Shown: positions 13,630 to 50,226 of the stretch, piece by piece
Position numbering within the stretch: position 1 is the first letter of the stretch
Layout: each line of letters starts with the position of its first letter
Source: Echinarachnius parma
Taxonomy: Eukaryota; Echinodermata; Echinoidea; Clypeasteroida; Echinarachniidae
Assembly: GCA_037951105.1 (NCBI GenBank)
Contig: JBAMJV010002084.1
Span: 62,001 to 126,000, forward strand
DNA: 64,000 nt
Reading direction: 5' to 3'
Program-made: the position numbers and the translations under genes
The notes under the pieces: generated by a model
Databases searched by the model: none
What the model was told of the DNA's origin: nothing
Seen by the model: the letters and a program-made list of their open reading frames with translations, nothing else

Positions 13630-16600
13630 GGGCAATTCCACCATAACGGAATTACATTCAGAGACGTTTTTTGCTCATTATTTCATTCCCTGCGCAATAT
13701 TCTCATGACTTAAGTAAATTTTGATACTTATATAAGTTGCACGGGTAGCCAGGCTACAACATGATAGGGAAATGGTTATATATCTTCCATGTGTTGTTGC
13801 ACACTAGACCAATATGTGTGACCGTAACGGAATTACCGGAGAATGGAGTTTTTTTTTTGCTACAAGTTTGCGTTGAGTTTCTCTGAAATATAAGACACTT
13901 TGAAACTGATTTTATGTATTTTTTCTATCTTGATAATGTCAACTTCATTTTGGAACAAGTACGTGCATAAACAACACAATGATAAGTTCACAAATTCACT
14001 TTTTTGAAAAAAGACCACTGTAACGGAATTACACAAATTTGTAACGGAATTACATCTCTGAAAGTTACAAGGAAAACTCAATTATTTTGCACTCAACTTT
14101 TCTTACATGCTAATGCAAACATCAAGGCTATCTAGCACTTGAATATAAACCATAATTTGACATATCTGTAAAGCAATTTTTGAACTTGTTGTGTAAAATA
14201 AATGAAAATATGGCCAAAATACAAATAAGAGTGAAATTTGAAGAAAAAAAATTGCTAAAATCCAGCTTTATTTCGGTTTATTTTCAGCTTCATATTAGTA
14301 GGCAAGAAATTAAAAAGGATTGCATCAATTTAATGAAAGAAAAATCCTAGGAAATATGTCCACTAATGTGTGTAACGGAATTACACAACTTAAGCAGTGA
14401 AATCAATTTTTCCACAAATCGGTACATGAACAACAAAGAATTCACATTTTAGCTTCAATACTTTTCAAAAATCAATAATTTGACAATAATAACCATATTT
14501 GAAGAAAAAAAAAGCAACATTTTAGAATTTTTCCTTTACTTCAAGAAAAATGGTTAAATTGTGAAAAAAAATGTACTACATTATGTGACATGCTAAATAA
14601 CTGCACATAATCAATATCAAGCAACATTTAAACAATTACAAATCACAAACAGGTCAAATCATTCAACTTTCAATGCTATAAAGCCTCGTAAACTTCCTGA
14701 ATATTGGAAATCTGTGTGAATGGAAATGCATTGTGAATGGGTAATTCCACTGTTACAGAATGACAAATAAGTGATTTTTAGCTCTGTTTTCTTAATCATA
14801 TTTAAAATCCTTTCACTTTCACAGTTTTTAAAACTTTAATAACTGGCAGGGGTACTAGAGGTACAACAGAACCCAAGATTGTTACAAATCTATAACACTG
14901 TAGCGTCCAGAGACCAAAATACAATCATAACGGAAAGGGGTCTTTCATTCAACACTAAATATGTAATGATTTTCTTCAAAAGTTACCACAAAAAATTCTT
15001 CATTGGTAATAAAAACTTACAATTTTAAGTTACAAACTTGAATTTGGTACATCTTTTTTTCCAGAAATGATCTATTTTAACCTCTGAAATTACCTTAAGA
15101 CAAACGAATGTCACTGTAACGGAATTACGCCTGTGAAATCCACCCATGAAAATGCAATTTCTTGGTTACATTTTTCTGCTTTTCTGCTTATAGTCATTAG
15201 TAAAGAATGTGTATGCATTGTTCATCACAAGCTCTTACATAAGGACCAGAACAAATCCTGAAGTTATGTGTGTGCGTAACATTATATAAACTCTTGTTAT
15301 ATTCTAAAATTATTCTTTAAAAAATTCATCCTAAATTGATCTTAATTTACTCTCAAATCAATTTGGAATGCGTTTTCATCCATTCCATGAAATACGAGAT
15401 GTATATCGGATATAAACGTGTATGATCCTCAAACAAAAAGTTGGCATATAAAATATAAATATGGAATTGCCAAAAATGAAAGACACCTTTAGGAATTCCC
15501 ATTTGAAAATGCAAATACTTTGTACATCATTCTTCTTTGATCTGCATACAGAAGCACACTGAACACTCAATGTATTCTGACTTTATGATAATGAATAAAA
15601 CATGTGTATCTTAGCCTGTATTATGTTTAGTTTTGAATATCTTGAAGCCTATTCTGTATTTATGTTTAATTTTATATGCTTCAGTTTAATACAAATTTAC
15701 ATAATTAATGATGAGTTATGAGCCTTTAACTGATCAATGATATTCAAATCTACATACAATTACAAAATTATTAATATTAAATCTCCTTGAAACATGAAGG
15801 TATGATTTATATCTTAAAATACATGAATGTAAATTAATGTGAGAAAATAAATGTAGCACCAGTGTCATACTAATCACTGGATATTTTGTAAAAAAATTGT
15901 ATTGTTTTTGTTTTTCCCTTTCTAAAGTACAAACATGAATCTGCTGCATCTTCATAATTTCAGTCAAGTGGTTCTTGCTGGAAACTAATTTAATGATAGA
16001 ACATTATCATCTCTATTATGTTCATGGAGAGATTAGAGAAATTATCTATCGTATATCAATTTAGTTAAATCACCATTGATGCAATATGAAGCATGTGGGT
16101 ACAATGAGTCACATAAAGTAACATTGTACAGTACTTGTATAATGACTTATTGTCTACATGGCTACAGTTCATGCTATTTAAAGGGTATTTCTACATTGAG
16201 AACAAGAATTTTTTTAATTTTCAGTAATATCATTCAATACCTTACAAACCATGTGCGTGTAATTCCGTTACGTAACGGAATTACTAATACCGTTACGCCA
16301 ATTTTGGAAAAAATAGTGACATTATTTCAGAAAATTATGTTGGAAGTTCTTAGGACTGTGGTGAAGGAAGAGAATTCACAATGACATGACTAAAGAACAA
16401 GTAATAAGATATTGAGAAAAACTTATTACGTTTTATCGTAACGGAATTACGATCAAATATGCATAGATTTCAAAAATTTCTCCAAAAAAAAATGCAATGA
16501 AGTTACTGCCCATGCTTTACAATTTGTGATTGTTACTACATTGTATGGAAAATATGACAAAAAGAGCAGAAACAATCATTGAATTCAAAGATTCACTTCA

Positions 16601-16810
16601 TTTTCATGAAATGAAGCTGATTTATGAATAAAAGGTCATAAATTTCTGTTCAATTCAAGCAGAAATATTTGCAAAACCAATAGAGCTATACACAAATGGT
16701 TTTCAGTTTCCTAAAATTAAAGTTTTCCTCTATCGATAACAGTTTGATTTAGGGAAGATTGCTCAACTTTGAGATGTGGTGTTTTTGCCTTCTCTCATAC
16801 GGAATTGCCC
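13630..16810. mobile_element. Word-type element A: GGGCAATTCC ends, GTAACGGAATTAC words
   Basis: Inverted ends GGGCAATTCC (13630-13639 and 16801-16810) enclose 3.2 kb of AT-rich, gene-free sequence. The 13-mer GTAACGGAATTAC recurs at 13824, 14020, 14041, 14372, 15116, 16272 and 16438, inverted at 16259, with near matches at 13643 and 14741. The pair at 16259-16284 makes a perfect 26-bp palindrome. A 13-mer repeated this often in AT-rich DNA is far beyond chance. The flanks (TCCT/TACT) give only a 3-of-4 target duplication. Superfamily unknown; see elements B and D. Confidence 0.8.
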
Positions 16811-17687
16811 TACTTTTAAAAATATCTGTCCCTTAGAAGCATTCACAACATACCGAGTGAAGGCTGGTATGGACATGTATATTCAGTTACAGTTCGACAT
16901 TTGAGTATGGCTCAGTCCAAATGTTACATGCCTACAGGAGATGAAATCCCTTCACTAATGGACCCTATGTGACTGTCTAAATTTAGGAATGCAATTTGCA
17001 GAAGCTCAGGATAACTGCTTAACTGGCATGTCTGATCAGTTTAGGGGGCATTCCTTTTATATGACTTGAGCCACAGTAACGATGCTCTGCTGCGGCAGGA
17101 AAAAACATGTTTATGGGTAATGGCTATTTAGTAAATCTATTATACAGCTCTGTACTGTTATGAAATTCAGTTCACAAGCAGTACTTTTCTACATGAACAT
17201 ATTGCTTTTAAAAGATCTAGGTGTGGTTTGTAATAAATTTTACCCTTTCGACACTGTTTTAAAATCCTTCTGAATGGAAAGAATGTTATTACATTTTAAA
17301 TCAAATCTATGTTGGTATTTTTGCCCTTCGCTGATGAAGGTTACTAGGTTTTCCACTGGATGTTCAGTGCAAGTTTGTGTCATTGTGACAAAAATCACAA
17401 GTAGACTCTTAAGGATGGAACCCATGACTTCATGATTTCTTCTACTGGCAAACTAGACCTTTTGGATCAGGCGTCAAGCCCTGGAGAGGGGGTTTAATAT
17501 CAGGTTCTTGATAACCAAATAGTAGCACACACTGCTAGAAGAGTTAGAATAATAATTAAATTTTGTCTGGTACATAAATATTGGTAATTTTGCCCTTCAC
17601 CGAGAGTGGTTTATCACTAGATGCTCAGTTCAAGTTTGAGTAATTGTGACAAAGTATCATTTATAAATGAAAATTTAAATGAGCCAA
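16811..17687. other. Intron sequence, weak internal repeat
   Basis: No element recognised. TTTGCCCTTC-CxGA...GTTCA(G)TxCAAGTTTG recurs at about 17320-17380 and 17580-17640, a diverged direct repeat. Confidence 0.4.
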
Positions 17688-17807
17688 GTGGGGAGAAAAA
17701 GTGCATGGCGACAGCTCGACTAAAATTAGCGATCACGTTAGAAGTGAATGATCGCTAATTACAGTCAAGGTTCAAGCTGTCGCCGCACACATTTTTTCTC
17801 TACTCAC
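17688..17807. mobile_element. 120-bp MITE with ~45-bp inverted ends
   Basis: Ends GTGGGGAGAAAAAGTG and, inverted, GTGAGTAGAGAAAAAATGTG; the inner arms share GGCGACAGCT and AATTAGCGATCA. It folds into one hairpin. No clear target duplication. Confidence 0.65.
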
Positions 17808-19158: not shown

Positions 19159-20094
19159 CTAGATGGATCTTCGACTGCGCGCAGTCGAAAATTATGCCTC
19201 CGCTATGACGCAATTTTCAATATCAAGCCCAAAATAACGTGCACTGAAAAAAAAAAAAAATTTCATATATATATTTTGAGTTCTGTGACCTTGACCTATG
19301 TAGACCCCAAACTTTGATGGCTACATTGGCTCCCAAGAATATTCAGGTACCAAGTTAGATTGAAATCTGACATTCAGGTCTTGAGATTTTGTCATTACAA
19401 GCCATATTTGCATATATATTGAGTCATGTGACCTTGACCTTTGACCTCATGGCCCCCAAAACCAAATCCAATCATTGCCACCCGATGTGTATGTAACTCA
19501 TTCCAAGTTCGAAATTGATCCGTCAAACGGTTCTTGAGATATCGTGAGAAGGATGCTTTTTTGCACATATATTGAGTCCTGCGACCTTGACCTTTCACCT
19601 CATGAACCCCAACATCTAATCAGATCATTGTCACCCCAATATGTACACTCATACCAAGTTTGAAATTGATCCATCAACCGGTTCTAGAGATATCGCGAGA
19701 ATAAGGCATTTTTGCACATATATTGAGTCCTGTGACCTTGACCTTTGACCTCATGAACCCCAACATCTAATCAGATCATTGTCTCCCCAATATATACACT
19801 CATACCAAGTTTGAATTTGATCTGTCAACTGGTTCTGGAGATATCGCGAGAACGAGGCATTTTAAAACATATATTGAGTCATGTGACCTTGACCTTTGAC
19901 CTCATGAACCCCCAAATCTAATCAGATCATTGTCACCCCAATATGTACACTCATACCAAGTTTGAAATTGATCCGTCAACCGGTTCTTGAGATATCGCGA
20001 GAACAAAAACGGGACGAACGTACGTACGGACGGACGGACGGACGGACAACCCGAAAACATAATGCCTCCGGCCACTTCGTTGGCGGAGGCATAA
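19159..20094 (+). mobile_element. DR1-array element, complete copy
   Basis: Head: CTAGATGGATC, palindrome TTCGACTGCGCGCAGTCGAA, then AATTATGCCTCCGCTATGACGC. Body: about five ~150-bp units, each with TTGAGTC-TGTGACCTTGACC, TTTGACCTCATG, ATCAGATCATTG and CAAGTTTGAAATTGATCC. Tail: GGAC microsatellite (20014-20045) and terminal hairpin ATGCCTCCGGCC-ACTTCGT-TGGCGGAGGCATAA. Head and tail share inverted TTATGCCTCCGC. Short inverted ends, a tandem-repeat core and a 3' stem-loop resemble non-autonomous Helentron/HINE or pearl-type elements, but membership is inference. Every unit carries AGGTCAAAGGTCA (DR1) or a close variant on the minus strand. Confidence 0.85.
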
Positions 20095-21859: not shown

Positions 21860-22395
21860 GTACTGTATGTCCCCAAAAAAATTACAATCAGACTTTCTGC
21901 AACGATAACTTTAAAAATAGTAGATCAATCATAATGCTATTTCAGGGTATGAAAATATAACTTATTATCGTAAACCAGGGTGACTTTGGCCGCCGGGGTG
22001 ACTTTTGCAACCCTGTGAGGAAAATGTATTTTCATTGAGGCTCTGTTACTTGAACAAATTTCTGAAAATATTTGTATACATTCTTATCTATAGGCTAATG
22101 TATGAACATTATAAAAATTCATAATTTTCTTTCATAACGGCTTACCTTCTTTGCTTTTGTTGTTGTTGTGTGTATAACAAATAAAGTGCATGAGTAATAT
22201 GGTGGTCAAACTTTTGAGTCTCGACAGAAAACAGAAAATGGAAAATCAAGCAAATATGTCAGATTGGGAAAACTAAGGGCGTACCAAACTGCCTATGCAC
22301 TAACTTTATCGACCCTCCCTCTATTTTTTCAAAATGGCCGTGGCAAAAGTCACCCTAGGCTATTTGCTGCAAGCTCGGGGTGACTTTGGCCGGGA
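21860..22395. repeat. Word-type region E: GTGACTTTTGCC words
   Basis: GGGTGACTTTGGCC at 21978-21991 and 22378-22391, GGGTGACTTTTGC at 21996-22008, inverted GGCAAAAGTCACCC at 22342-22355. The left block (TTACAATCAGACTTTCTGC, ATAACTTTAAAxATAGTAGATC) recurs near 35930-36000 and inverted near 36880-36965. Element ends were not identified. Confidence 0.6.
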
Positions 22396-26489: not shown

Positions 26490-27301
26490 GATGGGTGGAT
26501 TGGTAAGCCCTGAAAAGGACTATGGTAGTCCTAGAAAGGACTGTTGGTGTAGTTCTGAAAAGAACTATTGGTATTCTTTCTAGGAGAGTTCTAAAAAGAA
26601 CTGTTGGTAGTCCTAGAAAGGACTGTTGATAGTCCTAGAAAGGACTGTTGGTAGTCCTATAAAGGACTGTTGGGATAGTCCTGAAAAAGACTGTTGGTAT
26701 TCTTTCTAGGAGAGTCCTAAAAAGGACAATTGGTAGTCCTAGAAAGGACTGTTGTTAGTCCTAGAAAGGACTGTTGGGATAGTCCTGAAAAGGAGGGACT
26801 CTTACCATCCACCCTCTCCTCGCAATACCAACAGTCCTTTCTAGGACTATCAACAGTCCTTTCTAGGACTAACAACTGTCCTTTTTAGGACTCTCCTAGA
26901 AAGAATACCAACAGTCCTTTTCAGGACTATCCCAACAGTCCTTTCTAGGACTAACAACAGTCCTTTCTAGGACTACCAATTGTCCTTTTTAGGACTCTCC
27001 TAGAAAGAATACCAACAGTCTTTTTCAGGACTATCCCAACAGTCCTTTATAGGACTACCAACAGTCCTTTCTAGGACTATCAACAGTCCTTTCTAGGACT
27101 ACCAACAGTTCTTTTTAGAACTCTCCTAGAAAGAATACCAACAGTTCTTTTCAGAACTACACCAACAGTCCTTTCTAGGACTACCAACAGTTCTTTTTAG
27201 AACTCTCCTAGAAAGAATACCAACAGTTCTTTTCAGAACTACACCAACAGTCCTTTCTAGGACTACCATAGTCCTTTTCAGGGCTTACCAATCCACCCAT
27301 C
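26490..27301. mobile_element. Foldback element of AGTCCT-AGAA-AGGACT units
   Basis: Perfect inverted ends GATGGGTGGATTGGTAAGCC. The arms (26508-26790 and 26823-27285) are tandem ~21-bp units TAGTCCTAGAAAGGACTGTTG, with AGTTCT-AAAA-AGAACT variants. Each unit is itself a small hairpin, so the arms can fold locally or pair over their whole length. The order of variant units is mirrored between arms, and the right arm has more. The 30-40-bp loop has CTCTTACCATCCACC. No target duplication or gene seen. Confidence 0.8.
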
Positions 27302-28253: not shown

Positions 28254-29093
28254 AAGGATAATTTACCTATCAAAGTTTACCTAAAGTCGATAAATGTGTG
28301 GAGAGTTGAGCGCATTGATATTGCTGGTTTTTAGCAAGATTTATAATCCCCAGAGTGTAAATAGAAATTAGATGATTTTAGAGACAAAATAAGGTGTAAG
28401 ATAAACACCAGGTATCAAGTTGATACTTATAGCCTGTGTTTGGTGCACAAGGAATATTTTAGTGCAGATGATACATTTGCGTGCAGAATAAAGCACAATT
28501 GAGTCATGCTGAATCAGTCAATGATATTTGACAATTTTATGGATTTAATTTAAATTAGAAAATACTGAGAAGAAATTCTATAGGTTATGAATTATCAAAG
28601 TAAGATAATTTATGCATAAAGTAATGCAATTCTGTGGGGATTATAAAAGCTGCTTTAATGATTGAGATGACAATAATGACACAAGCAAACATTGTTATTT
28701 AACTGTCACATGATGATTATTGACTTATAGAAATTGCAGAATAACAATTAACACACAGTGTATTGTCAAAACAGGTTGCTTGTAATAATGTTGCTACATA
28801 TTTACACAATGTAAACAGTGCATGTAGAATTTAGACTAAGGATTTTTTCCTTTGTTTTTTTGCTCTCTGCAGACTGAATAAATACGTGACGATGGTCCTG
28901 CATCTCGTCGCTATATCCAAACCAATATTATCTGGCCTGAGTACTATTCTGGGATGTCTTCTTGGGTGAACCATCCATTCAGTTTCTGAGCTGTTGCAGA
29001 CAAGCATCCGGCATCGCTGCAACCCGGGGTCACTTCGAGCGAGACATCTAATAGACATTTCCAGACTTCCAGTCAGTTTTCAAGACATTCAAG

Positions 29094-32000
29094 ATGGCCG
29101 ACAAGCCCGACACTAAGGTTGGTCTAAAGCATAAGCGTCGTGCCTGCAAGGGCAGCTACACGAGAAAGGCAAAGGCGCTAGAGAGTATGATAGAAGCAGA
29201 GCGGCCCGCAGGAGAACTGGAGGAGGCGTTCAAACAGGCTCAGTCATCATTCCAGATGGTGACCGAGGTGCACGAGACATTTACGCTAGAGATCGAAGAT
29301 GATGAAGAGTTCGATACTGAAGAGCAGTGGATGCAGGCTCTGAGCGAGGAGTTTACCAGGCTGCAAATAGAATACAATCAGTTTATCAGTCCGCAGTCGC
29401 AGTCTGGTCGAACAGCCGGTAGTTCAGCATCTTCAATAGCAGAAGATTCACAGTCGCCTACACAAGCGTCTCACAGTCAACATGATTCGCGAGCAATGTT
29501 TAAAGTGGAAAAACTCAAACTTCCCAAATTCAAAGGAGACTTGAGAGACTATAATATATTCCGTAAAGACCTGTCGCGCGTTACAACGGGGTACAGTAGC
29601 GGTGATGCGGTGACGCTACTACGATCGTGTCTAGAAGGGAAACCATCTGACTTGATTCGCGGAATTAGCGAAATCGATGCAGCGTGGAAGGTACTTGATG
29701 CTATCTACGGGGACCGCAGACTACTAAGCGACGCAATCATGAATGACATCGGTGCATTTCGACCGTTGAAGGACAATGAGGATAGCCGATTTTGTGAGCT
29801 GGCGCAGTTAGTGCTCCGGAGTTACAACAATCTAAAGGAAGTAGGCCGTATCGCAGACATAGAGAACGCTCAAATGTTAGCCTTGATTGAGAAAAAGCTG
29901 AATGCAGAAGACAAGAAAATGTGGTTTCGCCACTTATCATCAAAGGACATGGATCCGTCTGTCAAGGAGATGATAGATTGGCTGTTCTCGGAAATGACAA
30001 CAAGACTACGAGCGATGGCACCGGTTCGCTCCAAGGGCACATCTCTCCATGTAGCGTATGTAGAGACAAGTCAGCAGCCAGCAAAGAGACAAGTAAGCAG
30101 TCCTATGCACAAGTGTTGGATTTGTGAATCCAATGACCATTGGATAGACCAGTGTAAAAAACTAATCAGCATGTCGGGTCCGGATAGACTACAACTTATG
30201 CGGAGCAACAGAGCATGTTACAGCTGCCTGAAGAAGGGAAGCAGTGAGCATCGGATGTCCAACTGTAGGAGGCGCAAGTTATGTGTAGAAGCGAATTGCA
30301 ACTACTATCATCATCCGCTTCTTCACTTCGATCAGCCACAATTGACATTGAACACTGGCAGCAAAGTCGCGACAATGTTGGGAGGGGATACTCTCCTGCC
30401 GATTCTTCGAGCAGAGTTCATCGGGACATCAATCATCGAGGGCAATGTTCTGCTAGATACAGGGTCCCAAACAAGTATCATCCGGGACTCGATGGCACAG
30501 TCGTTGGGTCTTAAAGGCAAGAACATCACAGTGGTCGTGACAAAGGTGGGAGGTGATGAAGAGGAAATCCGAACACTCACATACAGAGTACCTGTGCGCG
30601 ATGTCACAACACAACAACGTTTTACGATACCCGCTATAGGACTGCCGTGTATTAGTGAGGACATAGCACATGTAACCCTAATCGATGAAGCCAAACAGTT
30701 GGGGTTACCGATACAAGATATCCACAGAGGAGGAGGTGAAGTAGATCTACTAATAGGCATTGACCAATGCAAGATGCACACGGGAGAGACGATAAATGGT
30801 GAGACATGTGTAGCCCGAAAGTCGCCACTCGGATGGGTAGTGTTTGGAGGTAGCAGTCGTTCGTCATCCGCAAGAAAAGTTCTTCACGTAAAAGTAGCCG
30901 CGGATGTAGATCTGTCAGACTTTTGGAGCACAGAAGCAATGGGTGTGCAAGCCAGCAATTGTACATGTGAGCCATCAACACTGAGCAAAGTTGAGAAAGA
31001 AGAATATGAAGTAATAAAGCAGTCATGCAAGAAACAAGATGATCAGTGGATGGTGAGCTATCCATGGAGGAAGGATCCAGCACTTCTTCCGGACAACAAG
31101 GACCAGGCGAAGCAGATGCTAATAGGAACAGAGAAAAAGTTAGCCCGAGATCCAGAGCACGCTGAAGCCTACTGCAAGAAAATCGATGAAATGGTGGAGA
31201 TGGGCTTCGCTAAGAAATTAACTGAGTCAGAAATGAAAGCCCATCAAGGGCCTGTTCACTACATCGGACATCATGCGGTTATTCGACCGGAGAGCAAGTC
31301 AACGCCGCTTCGAGTAGTGTTCAACTCGTCATCAGTCTACAAGGGTCATCGCTTGAACGATTACTGGATGAAGGGCCCCGATTTACTCAATGACCTGTTC
31401 GGGGTGTTGCAGCGCTTCAGGGACAAGCCAGTCGCGATCTGCGGTGACATTTCGAAAATGTATCATCGCGTCCTCATCCCTGAGTCAGATCGTCATGTAC
31501 ATCGTTTCCTCTGGCGCGATATGGAGACCGACAGGGAGCCAGACGTGTACGTGATGCGTGTAGTAACTTTCGGCGACAAGCCAGCACCAGCGATGGCACA
31601 AATCGCGCTGAAGCTGACCGCAGAGGAATCAGCAGACACGCACCCAGAAGCATCGAAGGTCTTGCAGAACAGTGTCTACATGGACGACATCTGCTCATCT
31701 GTAGATACAGCCGAGGAAGCTAAGCAGCTCACCGAAGATATCGATACAGTGTTGAAAAGTGGAGGGTTCAAAGTGAAAGAATGGCATTCTAATGTGCCAC
31801 TTAAAGAGGTAGAAGTAGGTGAAAATCACGAAGAAAAAAGCATTCTAAATGATCAATCTGAAGAAAAAGTCTTAGGGGTTGTTTGGAATCAGCAGGATGA
31901 CTCCTGTTCATACCGAGTCAAAGGAGTAAGCAGTGATCAAGAGGGCAAGAAACAGAAATGGACAAAGAGAACCATTCTCAGTAGGATTGCAAAAATCTTT

Positions 32001-32156
32001 GATCCCATAGGTTTCGCGGCAGCATTTCTCACAAAGGCAAAAATAGGAATGCAACGCCTTTGGGAGTTAGGAGTAGAATGGGATGAGCAATTACCAGATC
32101 ATGTAGAATTTAGACTAAGGATTTTTTCCTTTGTTTTTTTGCTCTCTGCAGACTGA
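29094..32156 (+). CDS. BEL/Pao Gag-protease-reverse transcriptase region
   Basis: Fossil coding region of a BEL/Pao retrotransposon. It starts at ATG in GACATTCAAGATGG, 120 bp after the 5' LTR. Parts in order: basic N-terminus and acidic helical Gag (about 1-120); DUF1759-type Gag core (about 140-300, LPKFKGDLRDYNIF); zinc-knuckle region (about 340-420, CWICESNDHWIDQC); aspartic protease with DTGS near 456; reverse transcriptase (about 700-880) with YMDD near 861; and the start of the Pao-specific region (FDPIGFAA) near 965. In intact members one polyprotein is cut by its own protease. The codons are more GC-rich than the surrounding introns. The copy is incomplete; integrase and RNase H are not seen. 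Confidence 0.9.
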   Translation: MADKPDTKVGLKHKRRACKGSYTRKAKALESMIEAERPAGELEEAFKQAQSSFQMVTEVHETFTLEIEDDEEFDTEEQWMQALSEEFTRLQIEYNQFISPQSQSGRTAGSSASSIAEDSQSPTQASHSQHDSRAMFKVEKLKLPKFKGDLRDYNIFRKDLSRVTTGYSSGDAVTLLRSCLEGKPSDLIRGISEIDAAWKVLDAIYGDRRLLSDAIMNDIGAFRPLKDNEDSRFCELAQLVLRSYNNLKEVGRIADIENAQMLALIEKKLNAEDKKMWFRHLSSKDMDPSVKEMIDWLFSEMTTRLRAMAPVRSKGTSLHVAYVETSQQPAKRQVSSPMHKCWICESNDHWIDQCKKLISMSGPDRLQLMRSNRACYSCLKKGSSEHRMSNCRRRKLCVEANCNYYHHPLLHFDQPQLTLNTGSKVATMLGGDTLLPILRAEFIGTSIIEGNVLLDTGSQTSIIRDSMAQSLGLKGKNITVVVTKVGGDEEEIRTLTYRVPVRDVTTQQRFTIPAIGLPCISEDIAHVTLIDEAKQLGLPIQDIHRGGGEVDLLIGIDQCKMHTGETINGETCVARKSPLGWVVFGGSSRSSSARKVLHVKVAADVDLSDFWSTEAMGVQASNCTCEPSTLSKVEKEEYEVIKQSCKKQDDQWMVSYPWRKDPALLPDNKDQAKQMLIGTEKKLARDPEHAEAYCKKIDEMVEMGFAKKLTESEMKAHQGPVHYIGHHAVIRPESKSTPLRVVFNSSSVYKGHRLNDYWMKGPDLLNDLFGVLQRFRDKPVAICGDISKMYHRVLIPESDRHVHRFLWRDMETDREPDVYVMRVVTFGDKPAPAMAQIALKLTAEESADTHPEASKVLQNSVYMDDICSSVDTAEEAKQLTEDIDTVLKSGGFKVKEWHSNVPLKEVEVGENHEEKSILNDQSEEKVLGVVWNQQDDSCSYRVKGVSSDQEGKKQKWTKRTILSRIAKIFDPIGFAAAFLTKAKIGMQRLWELGVEWDEQLPDHVEFRLRIFSFVFLLSAD

Positions 32157-32794
32157 ATAAATACGTGACGATGGTCCTGCATCTCGTCGCTATATCCAAA
32201 CCAATATTATCTGGCCTGAGTACTATTCTGGGATGTCTTCTTGGGTGAACCAATAATGCAGGATAACACTGCTTTTCTCACATAAATAATATATGGATTC
32301 CGTGTGCAATGGCACTGCATGTTCCGTTGGGATCGTGAACATTCGGAATTGTTGAATCATACTGTCTTTTTTCCTTGTTATTTGGTACACCGTACTTAGA
32401 TCTCGTAGTTTTATATTTGAGTTTAGACTCTCCCTCACTCTCGACTTCAGTGAGTGATAACAACCAGAGGAAGAGAAATATGTTGGCTCAATTTAGATGA
32501 TAAAGCTTTTTTTATTTGGATTTCTAGCTCCTTATTCCGGGGATCGTATTATTCGATCCCGAGATTACTGTACAGGTATGCAGGATCACGCGGACACATG
32601 CACACGTCGCATTTGTCCGTTCGTGGAATATGTTTACGCGGACATCATGACTGTATATTATTGATATACCTGTATTCTTACGGGCACTGATTTAGAATGG
32701 ATTTTATTTGGCCGTCCGCGTGACTTGTCTATCGGGCATGACAATTCTGGCTACTGTCGTGCGTAGTATTAGCTCCCCAACTCTGGCTTTGAAG

Positions 32795-34340: not shown

Positions 34341-34349
34341 ATGTGTGCT

Positions 34350-35347
34350 GGCAAAAGTCACCCCGACACCCGGGGTGACTTTTGCCAGACTTCGACCAAC
34401 AAAAAGAAGACAAATGAAAATCAAGAAGGGAAGAATATATATGCAGTGGATAGACCTTTACTAGTACACCCTTATTACAGATAAAGAAGAAATTTTTGAA
34501 AACCAGTCATTATGAAAAAATTATCGAAAGAAATATTTAACTAGATGGATCTTCGACTGAGCGCAGTCGAAAATTATGCCTCCGCTATGACGCGATTTTT
34601 AATATCAAGCCCAAAATAACGTGTGCACTGAAAAAAAGAAATGTTTGTATATATTTTGAGTTCTGTGACCTTGACCATAGACTCCAAATGTTGATGGCTA
34701 CATTGGCTCCCAAGAAATATTCAGGTACCAAGTTAGATTGAAATCTGACGTTCAGTTCTTGAGATTTTGCCATAACAAGCCATTTTTGCATATATATTGA
34801 GTCATGTGACCTTGACCTTTGACCTCATGACCCCCAAATATAATCCAATCATTGCCACCCCGATGTGTATGTAACTCATCCCAAGTTTGAAATTGATCCA
34901 TCAAATGGTTCTTGAGATATCGCGAGAAGGATGCTTTTTTGCACATATATTGAGTCCTGCGACCTTGACCTTTCACCTCATGAACCCCAAAATCTAATCA
35001 GATCATTGTGACCCCAATATGTACACTCATACCAAGTTTGAAATAGATCAATCAACTGCTTCTAGAGATATCGCGAGAACAAGGCATTTTTGCACATATA
35101 TTGAGTCCTGTGACCTTGACCTTTGACCTCATGAACCCCAAAATCTAATCAGATCATTGTCACCCCAATATGTACACTCATACCAAGTTTGAAAGTGATT
35201 AGTCAAGCGGTTCTTGAGATATCGCGAGAACGAAAACGGGACGTACTTACGGACGGACGTACATGTACGGAGGGACGGACAACCCCAAAAAATAATGCCT
35301 CCGGCCACTTCGTTGGCGGAGGCATAAAAAGTGGCAAAAGTCACCCC
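34350..35347. repeat. Word-type region E, second copy, split by a DR1-array element
   Basis: GGCAAAAGTCACCCC (34350-34364) faces GGGGTGACTTTTGCC (34372-34386) 7 bp away; GTGGCAAAAGTCACCCC follows at 35331-35347. Between them sits the DR1-array element 34541-35326, which arrived later. Confidence 0.6.
34541..35326 (+). mobile_element. DR1-array element, complete copy
   Basis: Head CTAGATGGATCTTCGACTG with one mismatch in the palindrome, then ATTATGCCTCCGCTATGACG. Three to four ~150-bp units with TGACCTTGACCTTTGACCT (34808, 35112; variant with TTTCACCT at 34961), a GGAC-rich tract (35240-35280) and the terminal hairpin ATGCCTCCG...CGGAGGCATAA. About 90% identical to 19159-20094 by eye. Confidence 0.85.
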
Positions 35348-35359
35348 AGTTTACGGTAC

Positions 35360-36300
35360 CTACATCTTGCAGAAAGCCCTATTCGATTTGCTTCAGTGGT
35401 CATGGAGAATGGGGATCTTTGTAAATCATGTCAGATGTCCTTCCCTCCAGGTTTTGTAAGGAGACGCGTTGTCCATATTGAGTTCACGCCTTACAAATAC
35501 GAAGTTGTTCATTGTGTTCTCGCACAAAAATATCTTTTGAGAAAGTGACTGCTTGTTTCCTTTCATTTTCAACTAACAAAATAAATAATGAATGAAATGA
35601 AGATCAAGGGAATCATATTTTGTAGTTTTACAAACATTGGTAAGGCCATTCTGACAACTTTAACTGCCTTTGTCCCCTTTCATTTATATCATTTATTGAA
35701 TCAATCAAGCATTAATTTTTATATATGGAGACTAGTAAAACTAATTACTAGCAATAGTTGACCAAATTTTCAAGTTTCAAAATTAATTATGCTAATTAGG
35801 GCGTGTCCAAAATGCTATGTCCCGTACGTCACAAAAATTAGTACATTTTTAAATATTTCAGTATGAAACAGTTAATTTTTCTCTATCATATTCAATGAAG
35901 TTCTAATTTATCATACCATATGTCCCAACAAAAATTACAATCAGACTTTCTGCAACGATAACTTTAAAGATAGTAGATCAATCATAATGCCCTTTCAGGG
36001 TATGAAACTATAACGTATTACCTACATCTTGCAGAAAACCCTATTCGATTTGCTTCAGTGGTCATGGAGAATGGGGATCTTGGTAAATCATGTCAGATGT
36101 CCCTTCCCTCCAGGTTTTGTAAGGAGACGCGTTGTCCATTGTGTTCATGCCTTACAAATACGAAGTTGTTCATTGTGCTCTCGCACAAAAATATCTTTTG
36201 AGAAAGTGACTGCTAGTTTCCTTTCATTTTCAACTAACGAAATAAATAATAAATTAAATGAAGTAAAAGGGAATCATATTTCTGAGTTTGCAAACATTGG
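35360..36300. repeat. Direct duplication of ~280 bp
   Basis: TACCTACATCTTGCAGAAA...CCTATTCGATTTGC through TTTTGTAAGGAGACGCGTTG to about 35640 recurs at 36020-36300 with about 90% identity. Part returns inverted at 36815-36900. It also contains the junction motif of region E. Probably parts of one degraded mobile family. Confidence 0.65.
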
Positions 36301-38150
36301 TAAGGTGTGAAAATGAATGATTAAATAAAGAAATTAAATCAGTAACTCATGGAAGACTTGATTTGAGCTATTCCTCCTTTATGGCTTTCTCTTATCGTTT
36401 TTTTTCTTTCTAACAGATCAATATATCTTTCAACAACAAAACCTCACACAAGTACAAACCATTGATGTAAAGGTATGCACATAATTTCAATTAATTCGTT
36501 AGTTGCCTTGACAGTTGTGAGCAAAATATTTCCATTCATATGGGTGCCAAGAGCATCCAAAGCCCGGCACAGACAGAGCCGACTCGTCCCGATCCGACAG
36601 GTTTTCAGTCAGGCTACAGTCATTTTCTCTCAGTCGGAGCCGATTCAACATGTTTAATCGGCCTCAAATGACCTCTGACTGGCTCTTGATTGGCAAAACC
36701 GGAGTCCTGAGGCAACGCATACTGAGTAAATCAGGCTGAAAACCAGTCGGATCGGGTCAAGTCGGCTCTGTCTGCGCCGGGCTTAAGTGTCAGACTTGGA
36801 AGAAACGGACCCATGACATGATTTACAAAGATCCCCATTTTCCATGACCACTGAAGCAAATCGAAAAGGATTTTCTGCAAAATGTAGTTTCATACCCTGA
36901 AATATCATTATGATTGATCTACTATCTTTAAAGTTATCGTTGCAGAAAGTCTGATTGTAATTCTTTGGGGGACATACGGTACTCCTGACCTGCTAGCTAA
37001 GTTTTATGAAAAAAACATTTTTTGTTTTAATTTTATTAGCTAATTAACACATGTGACGTACAGGACATTTTCAGTGTTAAAGCAATGGCAAGACAGGTAA
37101 AAATTATTTGTATGTATTTCAACCGCTGCTCATCATCTGAATACTTGCTTTGATAGTCTCCAGAAGTTCAGAATAAATAGGTCTTCATAGGATTTCATGT
37201 AAGTTGCCACATTTTTGATGATTCGGTTTAATTTAGTCATATTTCTCTCTTTTTGGGCAAATTTAAAAGTAATTTAGATCAGAAGAATGTAACCTACACA
37301 TTTTGAAGCCAAATTAAGTAATGGGCAATTCCAAGCAAACGCCGTGACGGTCAAAGGGTGTTTCTCACAATGAAAGTCCAAATAACTCATAAAATCTAAA
37401 TATCTAGAACCAACTTTTGATATGCATATGTTACCACTCTCCTACCAATGTACTACAAGTATTCAGACAATGGTTTGAATAGGTGCTATTGAAGTGCATT
37501 AATGTATGAGGTCCGTACAAACCTAATAATGGCGGCCTCCAGTGTTCGCGTAAATAGCGGTAAAGCCGATAGAGTTTTCACATTTTTCTTCCAAAGCAGA
37601 AATCTGAGTCGGAGTAATGTTACATATAATAAACAGGAATATTACGATGTATAAAGTATTATAAACTCTTTTCTTGAGTTGCATTGCCCTTTAAGTTTGA
37701 CCAATACTCAACTATCCCTTTAAATAATAATAATATCTTACATTTATATAGCGCTTAATACAATGTTTCTAAGCACATTATTATTACCCTTGGTCATCAG
37801 GTGCAGGTCAAACCCGCACAATTATCTTGCGCACTGTAACTCCCTGGGGAGCATACTAGCCCAGCTCTGGCTACTTCGTTGGGGAGGCATACAAACTTGT
37901 TAAAACAATTATTTAACTAATAATAATGGAGAAAAGAAGGAATAAGTTTGATGAAATGTAGCGTGACAGACGGGACGTGACAGACAGGACATAATTGAAT
38001 CGAACATAATTATCTTCATAATGCGTTCTTTGACCAAAATATGGTATGATTGTTTAGATATTGGATATCAGAACACCATGTTTGACAGAACTTCATCATT
38101 TGTTCTCTTGGTATATAAAAAATATCAAATAAAACGTGACAGATGGGACA
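35818..38150. repeat. Word-type region F: GTGAC-GTACGGGACA words
   Basis: TGTCCCGTACGTCAC at 35818-35832, GTGACGTACAGGACA at 37053-37067, GTGACAGACGGGAC at 37963-37976, GTGACAGACAGGACA at 37977-37991 and GTGACAGATGGGACA at 38136-38150. A possible left end GGGCGTGTCC lies just before the first word, and a GGGCAATTCC end at 37323-37332 is followed by GCCGTGACGG. Element borders are unresolved. Confidence 0.55.
36560..36784. mobile_element. 225-bp MITE, ends AAGCCCGGCRCAGACAGAGC
   Basis: Inverted ends of about 60 bp sharing AAGCCCGGC, CAGACAGAGCCGACT, CCCGATCCGAC and GGTTTTCAG. It folds into one long hairpin. No certain target duplication. Confidence 0.75.
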
Positions 38151-39236: not shown

Positions 39237-39349
39237 TTAAGCACAGTGTAATTACTCATTATCACCATAACATACATTCTTGTCACAGAGTTGTTAAATT
39301 AAGTAAGATAAACTAATATTGTGAAATGAATAACCAAGAGGACTCTGAC

Positions 39350-39486
39350 TTCATATAGACTCCTTGGCCAAGGTGGTCCATGGTGTAGGGCTCTGATCTG
39401 TGAGATATGGCGACCAAGACTCCGATGTACACTACAGCACTCATCACAGATCAACACTCCACGATTCAACGATGCCCAGCCAGGAT
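39350..39486 (-). CDS. GIT: GIT exon: second half of ArfGAP zinc finger with arginine finger
   Basis: A 137-bp exon. The acceptor ends CATAG just above 39486. The first two bases complete an Asp codon, followed by 45 codons that read [17 protein letters not shown] and then [15 protein letters not shown] is the second cysteine pair of the ArfGAP zinc finger, and the Arg of HRSLG corresponds to the catalytic arginine finger of GIT proteins. The exon ends ...WPRSLYE in phase 0, at a non-standard but usable donor GTCAGA. The tail [14 protein letters not shown] has one residue more than the vertebrate equivalent and is the least conserved part. The next exon in transcription order starts with MVHAL, exactly as in GIT1/GIT2. 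The preceding exon should supply the first CxxC pair and was not found in the 24.5 kb upstream. Confidence 0.92.
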
Positions 39487-39656
39487 CTATGCAATTAAGA
39501 AAATATTCAAATTTAAGGATTAAGTAAATTTAAAATATTCAGACTTTTGCAATTAGTGACAAAGTATAAAATTGCATAGATCTCTGTTTGATTGAATTTG
39601 CTAGTGTGTGAAAATAACACGAGTTAAAAATCAAGTTACATGTATACGTTATTTAA

Positions 39657-41243: not shown

Positions 41244-41997
41244 GGGCAATTCCACGCCAAATGAGCCAAAAGTGGAAAAATCCAATGAGGATTATTTCTG
41301 ATCTTGTTTATTTTTTCTGGATTATTTTTTCGTAAATCATGATCACATAATGATATCTTTCAGTTTACATGATAAAAAAAAATATTGGGCGTCTCCTGAA
41401 ACAGACACCATACATGAACCTATACACATGGGACTACACAGTGCCTATTTCTAGAATATCTTTATTTTTTGCATTCCTTTCTAGTATTTTTCTGTTTTAA
41501 GGTACCAAATTGGATGATTGAATATCACATTATGTATTCAGATTAAAAATTCAGTCTTTTGAGAGCCCTAAAGTATATTTTTAATGACAAAAAAACTCTG
41601 TCCTTCCGTTACCGAACAGTGAAGCAATTAACTTTTTGTAATTAATATACCAATAGACATATTTTTTTCAAATAAGTGTTGTAATACTCTTAGAACATTA
41701 GGGAATGGACTATGTGCCAATATTACATGAAAGTCCTCTTAACTTCACAGGGTTGGATCATAACTAAAGGACTTGAAAATCCATGTCCATTTTGCCGTCC
41801 TTCCGTTACCGGCCTCATTAGTCTCCATATCTAATAAACGTAATGTAAAAAAAATAGGAAATAGGAAATCAAAGGTGTTCCACCAAGAGTCTCAGAAATG
41901 TAATTTACAATGATAAATCATAAGCAGGATTCCAGAATTATTTGATTTAATTTCAAAAATTGCATCTGAATGTCCTTCCGTTACCGTGGAATTGCCC
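41244..41997. mobile_element. Word-type element B: GGGCAATTCCACG ends, GTCCTTCCGTTAC words
   Basis: Inverted ends GGGCAATTCCACG, exact 4-bp duplication AATA (41240-41243 and 41998-42001). GTCCTTCCGTTAC occurs at 41600, 41797 and 41972, all one way; inverted it reads GTAACGGAAGGAC, which differs from the word of element A only in its last third. No coding sequence in 754 bp. Confidence 0.85.
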
Positions 41998-43999: not shown

Positions 44000-44039
44000 T
44001 ATTTTGTAATGGATCGCCATGTTTACTATGTTTTTTTTC

Positions 44040-44861
44040 CTCACCAGTCTGACATCGGCAAAAATTCATCTTGCCTCATTTGATGGAACTTTTCGATGGA
44101 TTTTCGAGTCCTCAAAATGAAGCAAAATCAATGAGTATTCATCAATTAAATAATTAACGTAATTGCGCTAATTAAAATGAAAAAATTGACGTACGATGAA
44201 TTAGTTCCGTAATTTTACCAAATGGGTCTTCAAATTTGAAGCAAAGTCATTAAAATGACTATATTAGTCAATAAAATAATCAAAGTATTTGCACTAATTT
44301 AATAACTCTGACAGAGAATCAAATGAGTCGAAATCAGTTCCGTAATTTTATCGAACAGGTCCTCAAAATGAAGCAAAATTGTTATGCATTAAATCAAAGT
44401 CGAAATTATACGAGCAGCTGCATAAACTCATAAAGAACACATTTGATGCTAGAAATGAGGGAGAAGAAGCAATTTTTGTTATTTTTGGAATAAATTTGCA
44501 CAAATTACCATAATTAATTAATGGAGACAAATTTCAAAATTCGGTGTACAAGTTTAGTGTACCAAAGTTAGCTCTACCAGATAAAGCAAACTAAATCAAA
44601 ATCGGTCGAGAAATGAAGGAGAAGAAGCATTTTTTGTGATTTCGAATAAATTTGCATAAATTACCATAGATAATGAATTTCACGATTCTGTGTAGAAGTT
44701 TTAAATCCCCCTCCTAGCCCTATATGAAACAATCAGAATCAAAATCGGTTGAAAAATAACGAAGAAGAAGCATTTTGAAAACTGTGGACGGACGGAAGGA
44801 CGGACGACGGACGCCACGCCATGGCATAAGCTCATCGGGCCCTTCGGGCCGGATGAGCTAA
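44040..44861 (+). mobile_element. Element with tandem core, GGAC tract and 3' hairpin
   Basis: Diverged direct units of ~150 bp (CCTCAAAATGAAGCAAAAT..., then AAATCGGTCGAGAAATGAAG with GAGAAGAAGCATTTTT, 44440-44780), a GGACGGAC tract (44787-44815) and the terminal hairpin AGCTCATCGGGCCCTTCGGG-CCGGATGAGCT. It has the same plan as the DR1-array elements. The hairpin followed by CTAA resembles a Helitron 3' end (hairpin plus CTRR). The left end was not fixed. Confidence 0.55.
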
Positions 44862-45239
44862 AAATGTAGAAAAAATCCAATGCTCATAGTAAATATGATA
44901 TCATAAATGTATCTATGCACTGTAACGGCGTGACTGTAATGCCGTGACCTTTGAATTGTACATGTTATATATATGGGAGATATTAAAGAGATGAATAATA
45001 TGATATAATTTTAATGTAGTGATCCAGAATCAATAAAGAACTAGATGAATGGGTGATAACCAAGATGCTATTAAATGATCATCCGCATGACACAAATTTG
45101 CAGCACAGCGCCTCTATTGATCAAAAAATCTTTTAGGACATAACTGAAATTCTTATCTATTTTAGAAGTTAGTTAATGGAACCATCAAATATTAAAACCA
45201 AAATACATACTTAAATGTAACAATGAAATATGAGATCTT

Positions 45240-45860
45240 TGACATCTAACCTTTGACCTTGTTTCTCAAAATAACATACAAATGTTTAATTTTTTGTCTG
45301 CACAGTGCATATTTGCAAGTGAATTGTTTCATGTAACATGATTTCAGAGTTAGTAAATGTTTGTTTTTGAATTGGTAATTATCCGAGTGACCTTTGACCT
45401 GTGCCCCAAACAGTTTCAGAAAATTGTCTTTTACCTACAGTTCTCTTTCTAACATTGATTTTGGAACTCAATTGTGAGAACAAAAAGCAACAACAATATT
45501 TTGACCTGTTGACCTATGACCTCCCATGACCCCATTCCCTAATCAGGTAATATACTTCACTGGACGCATACCAGTAATACTGGTATGCGTTAACCCTTGA
45601 AGGATAACATGATAATAATACTGGCAGTATTATTATCATGTTATCCTTCAAGGGTTCTCAAACTATCTTGATAATAATATAATTTTTGCATATTTGTTAG
45701 CTATGTGACCTTTGACATTTGACCTCATGGACCAAAATCATATCCAATAATCTGTACCTCTAAATACATGGATTGTACAAAGTTTGAACGAAATCCATCC
45801 AACGATTCTTGAGATATTGCAAAAAAAAGAACACTGATGTACAGATGCACATACAGACAG
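45240..45860 (+). repeat. Diverged DR1-array element remnant
   Basis: Repeated TTTGACCT/TGACCTTTGACCT-type blocks (45245, 45390, 45505, 45708), CAAAGTTTGAACGAAATCC, GATTCTTGAGATATTGC and a degraded GACGGACGTACAACCCC tail. Same plan as 19159-20094 but much older. It lacks head palindrome and terminal hairpin. Confidence 0.6.
45564..45656. repeat. Two adjacent perfect palindromes
   Basis: 45564-45590: 12-bp arms ACGCATACCAGT around AAT. 45592-45656: 32-bp perfect arms starting AACCCTTGAAGGATAACATG around a single G. Both can extrude as hairpins. Confidence 0.9.
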
Positions 45861-47736
45861 ACGGACGTACAACCCCTACACATACATGACTCGGGTAACT
45901 TTGAGATGGAAACATTATCAACTGACCCTATTCATATAATTATAGCATGAGCAATGCCCAAGCATACCTACAAAAAATATCTTACACTATTTGATTATGT
46001 CTACTGTATTATGTCAATGGGAATCCAGTAGGTAGCGTCACGGCGTTACACAAAACGTAACGCCGTGACCAAATTGATATTGATTAGATTAGTAAGTGGT
46101 AAAAGATAATGCTGCTATTCAGCATCCATATTATAGCCCTATGGGCTAATACAGAGAAAACAACAAATTATTTAATTCCCATTCATATTTTTCCAGAAAT
46201 ATTAAAAATATCTGTTTTTAGTGTAACGCCGTGACATATTGATGACTGTAAATGAGACAGTCACTGAAGCGGAACGAAGAGCGAAAATGATGAAATTGAT
46301 ATTTATCTGAAAAATTGAAGCAATGATCCTATCAACACTGAAATAAAATTTTATGAAAACTCCTTTTCGCAGTTCTTTTATGCTTAATATTTAATTGAAT
46401 GTTTTGTGAAAATAACTGAAAATTAATTTATGCTATATATTAACAATAATATAAATGCTTTTTTGGAAAGTTCAATCTTTTAGCTTTCATTTGATACCAA
46501 ATTTGTTATGGTACCATACAAGCTTTGGCATCCGCGCGCCCTTTTCTCCCATCCCGAGGCAGATTATGGGCAAGTCCAAGATAACGAGCGTGTTACGTAT
46601 GGGACATTTCAGAGACTTTCACTCCAAAAAAAATAATGTAGAGGGACATCGATTTTATTCTTTTACCATCTCCATCACTGGTATCTATAAGAAGAATAAC
46701 CTTGGTAAAGATGGTGAACTTTGACCTTTGCAATAATATTTTATTATATAAAATGTATGGCGTTACGTATGGGACCAGAAGAAATTAGGTTTTTTATAAA
46801 TAATTTTTAAGTTATAAACTCTGTGAAAGTAATTTAGAGGACAGGTTGTAATTCAATGTGGTAGAGGGTACATTGCTCAGGTTTGTTGAGGCATAGTTTC
46901 ATTTCATTCCGAAGAACGCTTTTCTTGTAGGCTCTAATTAATTTTGGTAAAGACGTGTTACGTATGGGACATTTTGTCCCCATTCGTTTAATGTAGGGAA
47001 ATTAATATTTAAGGCAAATTGAGGATATTTGGTTAAAATAACGAGTTGCCATGGTGATTGGTGTAAATAAGTATCAGAAATAGTTATGTCATTCCTTAAA
47101 ACCCTATAAAAGAGGTATCACTCATTAATTTAGCGTTCCTAGATCAGAATCTATACAATTTTACAGGAATTTGGGGAATATGCAAATTAGGTAAATATCT
47201 TAATTATGCAAATCATATGCTATGTATAATGTTTTTGAAGTCAAAGTAAATAAACAAATCTTAAATACATAATAGAACATGATTAAATTAAATTAGTACA
47301 TTTTGTGTGTTTGTAAGCCACTGTTTAACAGTAATATTCATAAATATGCAAATTAGGGGCAGCCATCTTGGATTTCAGGGCTTTGCTCAAGTGATACATG
47401 CAAATGAGAAGCAGAAATGGCTTAATTTGCCCCAAATACCTTAAATGAAATGTTGGAACATTTCACACTACATTCCTGAATACAAATAAACATCTTGCTC
47501 TAATTCATGAATATGCAAATTAGCTAATTATCTTTAAAAATGCCTGCCGAGCATAAATTATTGTTTTGGCTCCACTTCTAAAAAAAGTTTATGGACCTAA
47601 TTACTTTCTCTATACTCATTAACATTGATATATCATGACAATATCACTCCAAAATAAATATTTGCCTATCTGCCACAAAGGCTCCCAGTAGCTACATTGA
47701 CTTTGTATGTGAATTATGTCCCATACGTAACACAAT

Positions 47737-49684
47737 GGGTGATTTCAAGTATGGCGTTGGGGTTACAAATAATCATCATGAATCACAATGTTTCAAATAT
47801 AAACTAATGACAACAAGATTCTGATCTTTTTCATTCTCATCATCGAACTGAAAAGATGTAAACTAATTTTTGTTTTAAAGTAGTAGTCATTCATAGGCTT
47901 TTTTAAAACATAGAAGCTAGAACGTATAATTATTTAGAAAAAACATTATGGTTTTGAAAATAAGCTGCCTCAAAAGTGAGTAACAATTTTGCATGAATCA
48001 CAGGAATTAACCACCTCTGTATGATATTGTACATGTGGCTCGACAAGGCTGGGGGGCATTATTTCCCCCCCCCCCCCTCCGAGATTTGTTTTATCGCTCC
48101 TGACAGTAAAGCTCACGCCCCACTGCTTAGTGACTTTTTTTTCGGGGGCGAGGGGGGGGGGGGGGGGTCACGCAAGTATAAAAACAAGAAATACATAAAA
48201 TAATTAATTATAACAACAATATAAAACATAAGGAAGAACCTGGCTATTCCAATTTGTTTTGTTGTATTATTATTCCAAATGGTCTAAAGAATTTATGTAA
48301 GGTAGTGAAAACTAATGTTTGATTATAAAGAACATATCAGATTTATGGGTAAAAATATGAATTGTATGACCTTATTTCTGTAAATTACTATAGATATTCA
48401 AATTAATACATTCTTTAAAAAATAAATTTCCATTTTTGTTTCATACACTTCACAGAGATAGTTGAGTTGTGGTAGAGAGGGCGCTACACATAACAAAGTT
48501 TGTGTGAGATAATAAAAAACTGAGTGTAACATTTGAAAGAGCATAATATTTTAGTGACAGAATAAACTTCATTTAATCAAAATCGGTTCAGAAACGGCTG
48601 AAATATCCATAAACATAACCATTTGTTACAAATATTAGCTAATTTTGAACCAACCGTTACAAAATTTTAAAAAATGCTTCCTCTTTTTAAAAATTAAAAA
48701 AAAAGTTGTTTAATAGTTGTTGATTATCTCTCTATCTAATCACTATTTTTACGAACCTTCACATGCACAATATTTTATTTTAAATGGTTTAAACCAATGT
48801 GTTTTTAGAGAGCGCCATCTTGAGTTTGAACGCCTCTGTTTGAATGATAAAAGGCTTTTTACTCAGTCGTTTGTGATTTTGAATTCCTTTCAAGCATGGT
48901 AGAGTTAAGACTATTAGTCTGTAATTTAATGGTGCAGGTTTCGGTTGACCAAAACTGTACTCTCTTTACCAGAACTCAACTATCCATCTAACATGGGTGC
49001 AAATTTTCACGACGATCGGCTGCTTCGCGGCCGAGATCTTAAGGGGGCCATAATGTGTCCCCCCCCCCGGCAGTACAAAGACCTAAAATAGCCCGACCTG
49101 TTTAGGGTTAAGCATATTGTTGGCATACGACAAGTCAAATTTCACAAATTATCTAGGTTGATACATTTTTACATGCTCAAACAAACGAAAACACCACCAT
49201 TTCAGTTCGGAATTGTGATTTTAATGCCCACTTTAACAGTAACACTAACACCAACTCGATCTGAACTTGAAATGACTTTCATTTCGATCCATACGGGAGT
49301 TGTTATCTCTATGGAGTTTTGCGTATACAGGGTCAACACTAACACTACTGGGCAGATTAGCAGACGACGCTAAACACCAGCAACTATGTGGCACTGCCGG
49401 AAGTACGAGGTCAAACCTCTAACACCAACTCATTTCAAGTACGGTGTTAAGGCTGCAGTTAGTGTTTAATAAACATTAACACTAGCTCAACACCATCTAC
49501 GATAGTATATTGCCATATCAATAAACACCGCCTGTCGGAAACGGAAGTTTGTACAACGGTGAAATCAGAGGTCATCATGTTAACACCATCCTAACACTAA
49601 GTCATTTCAAGTATGGTGTTTAAGCCCGATTTAGTGTTTAATAAACACTAACACCAGCTTTAAACACCATACTTGAAATCACCC
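47737..49684. mobile_element. Nested element, ends GGGTGATTTCAAGTATGG, TAACACxAACACC words
   Basis: Inverted ends GGGTGATTTCAAGTATGGYG with GTTTAAAGC-type continuation. CATTTCAAGTAYGGTGTTWA and TAACACTAACACC-type words recur (49245, 49330, 49420, 49590, 49650 regions), inverted and direct. No clear target duplication. It carries the TTAA-type MITE 48007-49107. Confidence 0.65.
48007..49107 (-). mobile_element. TTAA-type (piggyBac-like) MITE copy 4, split
   Basis: Right end CCCTAAACAGGTCGGGC before TTAA at 49108-49111; left end near 48007 is decayed. It matches copy 2 on both sides of a nested AGGGGTAG-family element (about 48457-48987, inverted ends GATAGTTGAGTTSTGGTARAG). In copy 2 the interrupted position reads CACTTCAC-TTAA-CATG, so the nested element also chose TTAA. 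Confidence 0.7.
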
Positions 49685-50226
49685 ACTGTCCAATACATAA
49701 CACTTTCTATAAATTCTATAATTTTCTTATAAAACAAAAGTTCTAATGAAAAATTCCCAGCTTATTATAGTATTTTACTTTTAAAATGCATAAATTAGAA
49801 CTTCCCAAAGTTGCACTAGAATAACTATTAAATTATTTGAAAAAAATGAAAAAAAGTTCCTCATTTTGTTACGTATGGGACATTTCATGCTAAGACATGA
49901 CCTAATTTGCATAATTAATTAGGTCATGACTTAATGTTTATGTAAAATTTATACAGATGATTGAGTGGTCATGTCTATATATTAATAAAATATCATATCA
50001 TTCCCTATGATTTGTTATGAATTTTTATAATTGTCCCATACGTAACGCTCTATTTCACATTTATGCAAATGAGGCCCTTCAAATTTGCATAAATTTACAT
50101 AAATTTTAATTTCTTTTTATGGAATTCAAAACTTCAACTCATGGGCTTCAATATGATGTGAAACATGTCATCAGTAAATCAAGATGAAATTTCAACAGCT
50201 AGGTTGACATTACCTTGGACTTGCCC

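Follow-up and report, generated by a model that had tools for sequence, protein, structure and literature searches.

Family-specific words and common termini in a putative group of non-autonomous DNA transposons of Echinarachnius parma

In plant CACTA transposons, the termini are fixed, and the subterminal motifs differ among families of one species; in the account given in PMC2613891, the motifs of En/Spm, Tgm and Tam1 are bound by TNPA-type proteins, and motifs and binding proteins have been suggested to co-evolve. The principle of fixed termini with diversifying motifs is thus not new. Here, we describe a comparable arrangement in a 64-kb stretch of the genome of the echinoid Echinarachnius parma (contig JBAMJV010002084.1, positions 62,001 to 126,000; 'the window' below, numbered from its first base). 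Three elements of the window, A, B and D, look like non-autonomous DNA transposons of one group, which have common termini and each contain copies of a short word of their own. These words probably serve as family-specific sites recognised by a DNA-binding protein that a transposon encodes, most plausibly the transposase.

As far as CACTA elements are described in PMC2613891, A, B and D resemble them in their short conserved terminal repeats, in a private subterminal motif present in both orientations and in the diversification between families. However, the elements described here have GGGCAANTCC termini and 4-bp duplications, whereas CACTA elements have CACTA termini and 3-bp duplications, and their sites are few and mostly ~165-205 bp apart, whereas those of CACTA elements form dense arrays. 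Membership in CACTA/EnSpm is ruled out by the termini and the duplications. A private subterminal motif array of the CACTA type is present in A, B and D, a likeness of working rather than of membership; the words appear to work like CACTA subterminal motifs without belonging to that superfamily.

The VANC proteins of Arabidopsis VANDAL elements bind family-specific short motifs in non-coding DNA and remove silencing marks (PMC5735166), and short private motifs in the non-coding DNA of related elements are common to VANDAL and the present elements. In the VANDAL elements covered by PMC5735166 and PMC10398659, however, the motifs are dense, tandem and in the same orientation, and serve anti-silencing. 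Such dense same-orientation arrays, a feature of the VANDAL/VANC system, were not found here. The words might still be targets of a similar anti-silencing protein with no role in cutting or joining, as they are private motifs that differ among related elements, and those of A carry 14 of its 38 CpGs in 129 of 3181 bases. Yet they are few, face either way, have flanks unrelated to one another and keep to the ends, by which they differ from the VANC motifs of PMC5735166, and we regard this explanation as unlikely.

Other superfamilies share single features with the elements. Sleeping Beauty has an outer and an inner site in an end of ~220 bp, joined with HMGB1; these are two sites per end (in the description of PMC7827188), whereas three or more, with family-specific words, are present here. 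Tc1/mariner was excluded by its TA duplication (PMC5199201) versus 4 bp here. Galileo, according to the sections of PMC3688188 on its ends, carries several THAP sites at intervals along each end (at about 70, 561-577 and 701-718 bp), the inner ones in direct repeats, but it belongs to the P superfamily and has long inverted repeats. The P superfamily was excluded by its duplications of 7-8 bp (PMC5199201) versus 4 bp here, the empty site of D containing TTAT only, and Kolobok and piggyBac by their TTAA duplication (PMC9587614) versus AATA and TTAT. Sola2 of Dictyostelium fasciculatum, as presented in PMC3627910, has terminal repeats of 12-13 bp, and its 4-bp duplications are AT-rich; it resembles B and D (AATA, TTAT, 13-bp repeats) by duplication and repeat length only. 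Searches of open-licence papers gave no description of the GGGCAANTCC end type.

Private words and common termini

Words were counted on both strands of the whole window at up to one mismatch. The A word occurs nine times, every copy lying inside 13643-16450; the B word three times (41600-41984), the C word five times (44922-46235), the D word six times (46592-50046), the E word five times (21998, 22340, 34348, 34375 and 35331) and the F word twice (35818 and, with one mismatch, 37053). Each word is confined to its own regions. In 20 dinucleotide-preserving shuffles, complex 11-, 12- and 13-mers reached at most three copies per 4.5 kb, versus nine for A and six for D. The words are thus real and private to each family, their exact limits being partly a choice made in an earlier note on this DNA. 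That note had described six regions with one private word each; the words proved real, clustered and private, but the F region holds two variants, F1 (GTGACGTACGGGACA, counted above) and F2 (GTGACAGA..., at 37963, 37977 and 38136), which is three mismatches from the F word. The note had also stated that all words start with GTNAC and that most end in AC or ACA. Both features are seen in words A to D and F; the E word starts with GTGAC, but only two of the four copies fully matching GGGTGACTTTTGCCA end in AC.

The coordinates of the elements and words are listed in Table 1. A, B and D have 10-13 bp termini in common (GGGCAANTCC), in inverted orientation, and the window contains nine GGGCAATTCCA-like ends at up to one mismatch, where 100 mononucleotide shuffles averaged 0.46 (13 versus 4.79 at up to two mismatches). 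Exact 4-bp duplications flank B (AATA) and D (TTAT), so that the common ends and the two duplications claimed earlier were both confirmed; the flanks of A agree at three of the four bases. The Repbase rule for superfamilies uses the first 11 terminal bases with one mismatch allowed and an equal duplication length (PMC4455052). With one mismatch allowed, these bases align among the ends: they are GGGCAATTCCA in A, B and the lone end at 37323, GGGCAAGTCCA in D and GGGCAATTCCG at the right end of A, D and A-right differing by two mismatches. The duplication length is 4 bp in B and D, three of four bases agree in A, and the end at 37323 has no partner end.

The window also contains an empty target of D: the sequences flanking this element (46510-46568 and 50227-50535) are contiguous at 63426-63798, with one TTAT. 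This uninterrupted copy shows that D was inserted at its site, as does the duplication. The case for mobility is carried by the two exact duplications and this one empty site, A being assigned to the group by its ends and layout. D itself is interrupted by an insertion of ~1.95 kb, which lies between two D words; without it, their distance would be about 21-22 bp (subtraction by hand). No clear duplication is present at its edges.

The earlier grouping of all six regions into one set of elements is retained only in part, A, B and D having termini in common and C, E and F having no paired ends. The only tie of C to the group would be the lone end at 37323. The C region also contains a near-perfect 65-bp palindrome (45592-45656).

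Table 1. Positions of the candidate elements, end modules and words in the window
Feature	Coordinates	Strand	Description
Element A, putatively non-autonomous	13630-16810	+	Ends GGGCAATTCC; 10-bp repeats; flanks TCCT/TACT (3/4 match)
A left end module	13630-14053	+	Words at 13, 194, 390, 411
Decayed duplicate of A left module	14739-15128	+	GGGTAATTCCA; words at 13 (10/13), 188 (8/13, weak), 377 (13/13)
A words near right end	16259-16450	.	16259-, 16272+, decayed 16284-, 16438+
E words, first place	21978-22392	.	Without paired ends
E words, second place	34349-35346	.	Interrupted by nested dispersed repeat, about 34541/34571-35328
F1 words	35818-37067	.	35818-, 37053+; interrupted by nested element resembling a miniature inverted-repeat transposable element, 35921-36974
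Lone end	37323-37348	+	GGGCAATTCCAAG; C-like word (2 mismatches) at offset 13
F2 words	37963-38150	+	GTGACAGA(C/T)(G/A)GGAC
Element B, 754 bp	41244-41997	-	13-bp inverted repeats GGGCAATTCCACG; AATA duplication; words 13, 188, 385 from right end
C words	44922-46235	.	Without paired ends
Element D	46568-50226	+	13-bp inverted repeats GGGCAAGTCCAAG; TTAT duplication
Nested insertion in D	47737-49684	.	Termini GGGTGATTTCAAGTATGG; boundaries by eye
Lone right end	50809-50838	-	GGGCAATTCCAAAC; without any of the known words
Empty site of D	63426-63798	+	Both D flanks side by side; single TTAT at about 63479

Positions of the words and relations between ends

Measured from the outer end, with words at up to three mismatches, the offsets recur from family to family. 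Besides those of A-left (Table 1), they are 13, 188, 225 (three mismatches) and 385 in B-right, 360, 514, 526 and 539 in A-right, 356 in B-left (the same word as that at 385 from the right), and 24, 194 and 389 from the left and 180, 344 and 525 from the right end of D. The terminal word begins at offset 13 in A-left and B-right, as it does in the lone end at 37323. With words at up to one mismatch, seven coincidences within 6 bp were found across families, versus 0.76 expected; this number was reached in 3 of 20000 random placements and in 24 of 20000 when the spacing of each element was kept. A narrower count on three chosen ends, which were picked after being seen, gave 1 in 200000. The bases at offset 13 are ATAACG in A-left and D-left, GTAACG in B-right, GTAATG in D-right, TGAGAG in A-right and CCAAAT in B-left, so that four of the six ends show the core either exactly or with a single change. 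At the end-like sites 37323, 50838 and 14739 they are CAAACG, CAAACA and GTTACA, respectively.

The words are thus non-random in position and form an end module. Four of the nine A words belong to the left module, one to a second module and three lie near the right end, that at 14372 being left over. The earlier description, in which the words run through the element unlike the binding sites of ordinary transposons, does not hold: in A, B and D, most words keep a set distance from an end or end-like site, stretches of 760 bp in D and 1143 bp in A separate neighbouring words (up to one mismatch), and D contains the nested insertion.

The second module of A, at 14739, is a diverged copy of its own left module. 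With words masked, the two align at a gapped z of 5.7, compared with 0.4 for B-right and 0.0 for D-left; blastn gave 60.6% identity over 132 bp (E 2.4e-4), terminus and first word included. Among 17108 background placements, 0.018%, 8.9% and 0% reached the word scores at offsets 13, 188 and 377, respectively, and the middle word is considered weak because 8.9% of placements score equally.

Spacing was examined after merging words less than 60 bp apart (up to three mismatches; two for E). Among the resulting 21 distances, 11 measure 164-206 bp, four 342-380 bp and six are longer, with none at 60-150 bp; in a scan statistic, 11 was reached in 1 of 5000 random placements, a test framed post hoc on elements (A, B and D) that are non-independent through shared descent. 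Removal of nested insertions by hand reduced the F1 distance from 1235 to about 179 bp and that of E from 959 to about 172-202 bp. The copy between the E words (34755-35231) is one of three dispersed repeats, with 10472-10920 and 19397-20006, each carrying three to four head-to-tail 151-bp units with TGACCTTGACCTTTGACC.

Such regular spacing, together with the duplicated module in A, could also be expected if an old array of about 180-bp units, tandem or satellite-like, had decayed everywhere but in the words and these had no function in the present copies. However, when the 85-bp flanks of the words of a single element are aligned, they score like shuffles, the observed and shuffled means being 15.1 and 15.2 in A, 14.8 and 14.6 in B, 16.0 and 15.8 in C, 15.6 and 14.9 in D, 13.5 and 15.6 in F1, and 15.2 and 16.4 in F2. 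Because flanks within an element are unrelated, the array is not tandem-repeat debris. The words also occur in both orientations, and their offsets recur across families, which makes this origin very unlikely. Tandem duplication was rejected for the words inside one module, where flanks are unlike, and accepted for the second module of A.

Between families, some evidence of relatedness was obtained. A-left and B-right, with terminus and words masked, gave a gapped z of 4.7 and an ungapped z of 3.8 (repeat, gapped z 4.2). Flank matches at sites 1, 2 and 3 are 22/27 (13 of the 27 being terminus), 14/28 and 8/28 for A-B, 14/27, 11/28 and 5/28 for A-D, and 11/27, 10/28 and 6/28 for B-D; non-corresponding pairs match at 5-12, 4-10 and 4-8 positions, respectively. 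Sites 1 and 2 therefore look related, unlike site 3. The sequences immediately inward of the terminal word are ATTCAGAGAC in A, ATTCAGATGC in B and TTTCAGAGAC in D. The words end in GGAATTAC at all three A sites versus GGAAGGAC at all three B sites. The likeness of these two ends is weak but detectable, and their three words seem to have changed alike. D keeps ATAACG at offset 13 with its own word directly inside, an arrangement that may record a switch.

Proposed mechanism and other features of the window

If the words are recognition sites, as we think probable, such a site would be used next to the terminus as well as at two or more subterminal positions; the spacing, mostly about 165-205 bp, could set the sites between nucleosomes or let the DNA fold into one end complex. 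When the specificity of a lineage shifts, all its sites would shift together, and the termini, read by a conserved catalytic part, would stay. The protein would be supplied by an absent autonomous partner, and the GTNAC starts and the AC or ACA ends would suit a dimer for which one half-site is constant and the other variable. The protein and its binding to the words are inferred, as are the function of the spacing and the order of events; the link to nucleosomes is a guess from the spacing length. The idea in the earlier note that binding specificity diversifies under fixed termini finds support in A, B and D, with their common termini, different words and some concerted change, but the contrast it drew with ordinary transposons is lost.

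Several observations weigh against recognition by such a protein. A-right and B-left have no word beside the terminus, and the D words begin at offset 24 rather than 13. No paired GGGCAATTCCA-like ends for C, E or F are present in the window, which holds one copy per family. The homology of A-left and B-right is modest because their local score of 40 does not exceed the range of mononucleotide shuffles (maximum 45) and B-left and B-right, an unrelated pair used as a control, reached a gapped z of 3.2. The A and B flanks at site 3 are unlike, and non-corresponding A-B flanks match at up to 12/28. In addition, Pfam searches with 20 proteins (two sets of 10, out of the 395 stop-to-stop frames with 50 or more amino acids) detected no transposase or DNA-binding protein: the first 10 gave two matches, one in a BEL/Pao frame and one in an ArfGAP exon, and one of the second 10, from the A, C and D regions, matched DUF5030 at E 0.025, below its cut-off. 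Rfam gave no match at gathering scores.

A more specific scenario, in which the end complex assembles on nucleosome-phased sites, the word is replaced in concert, families are not cross-mobilised and D is a snapshot of a switch, would amount to a radiation of the lock-and-key type, in which the GTNAC half-site is constant, the other half-site variable and the termini common to the families; we regard it as doubtful.

The core of D (1.7 kb) also contains eight of the 23 window copies of the octamer ATGCAAAT, which we take to be a POU-factor site, at 47180-47523, 49905, 50063 and 50083, three of them as ATGCAAATTAG and 166-167 bp apart. With this second array, the words might be host-factor binding sites carried by the elements, for example as enhancer-like sequences for germline expression. 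The word differs per family, however, and a host factor would not need a word next to the terminus, where it is found in A and B and at the lone end 37323; of the explanations considered, we hold this one the least likely.

In viral contigs, the single D word matched 53 stretches, once each, which we read as chance, and neither paired D, A or B words nor an end pattern had any match; searches of prokaryote genome contigs for paired D words and for an end pattern likewise had none. The host is not expected in either set, and these zeros say little.

The remainder of the window contains a BEL/Pao retroelement (28821-32252), in which 153-bp identical direct repeats surround a 1020-amino-acid frame (29094-32156) that stops just inside the right repeat. 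The frame has protease and reverse-transcriptase matches and no integrase match, and the element is possibly an internally shortened, young copy. An exon with an ArfGAP match lies on the minus strand at 39302-39529; its wording resembles GIT proteins, so that introns of a host gene may contain some of the elements. A recent tandem duplication of about 2.26 kb (54898-57150 and 57178-59436, 99.4% identical), a large inverted repeat with 22-bp units (AGTCCTAAAAAGGACTGTTGGT) and 272-bp fully complementary arms (26506-27301) and another with 126-bp fully complementary arms (59862-60622) were also found.

For the DNA-binding protein of a transposon to change its specificity and still recognise its own ends, several sites have to change in concert. 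The three related families within 64 kb, which have the same end layout and different words at corresponding sites, would allow the binding domains of autonomous partners to be compared directly with their words, and the regular spacing of the words offers a test of whether transposon ends may be built around nucleosomes.

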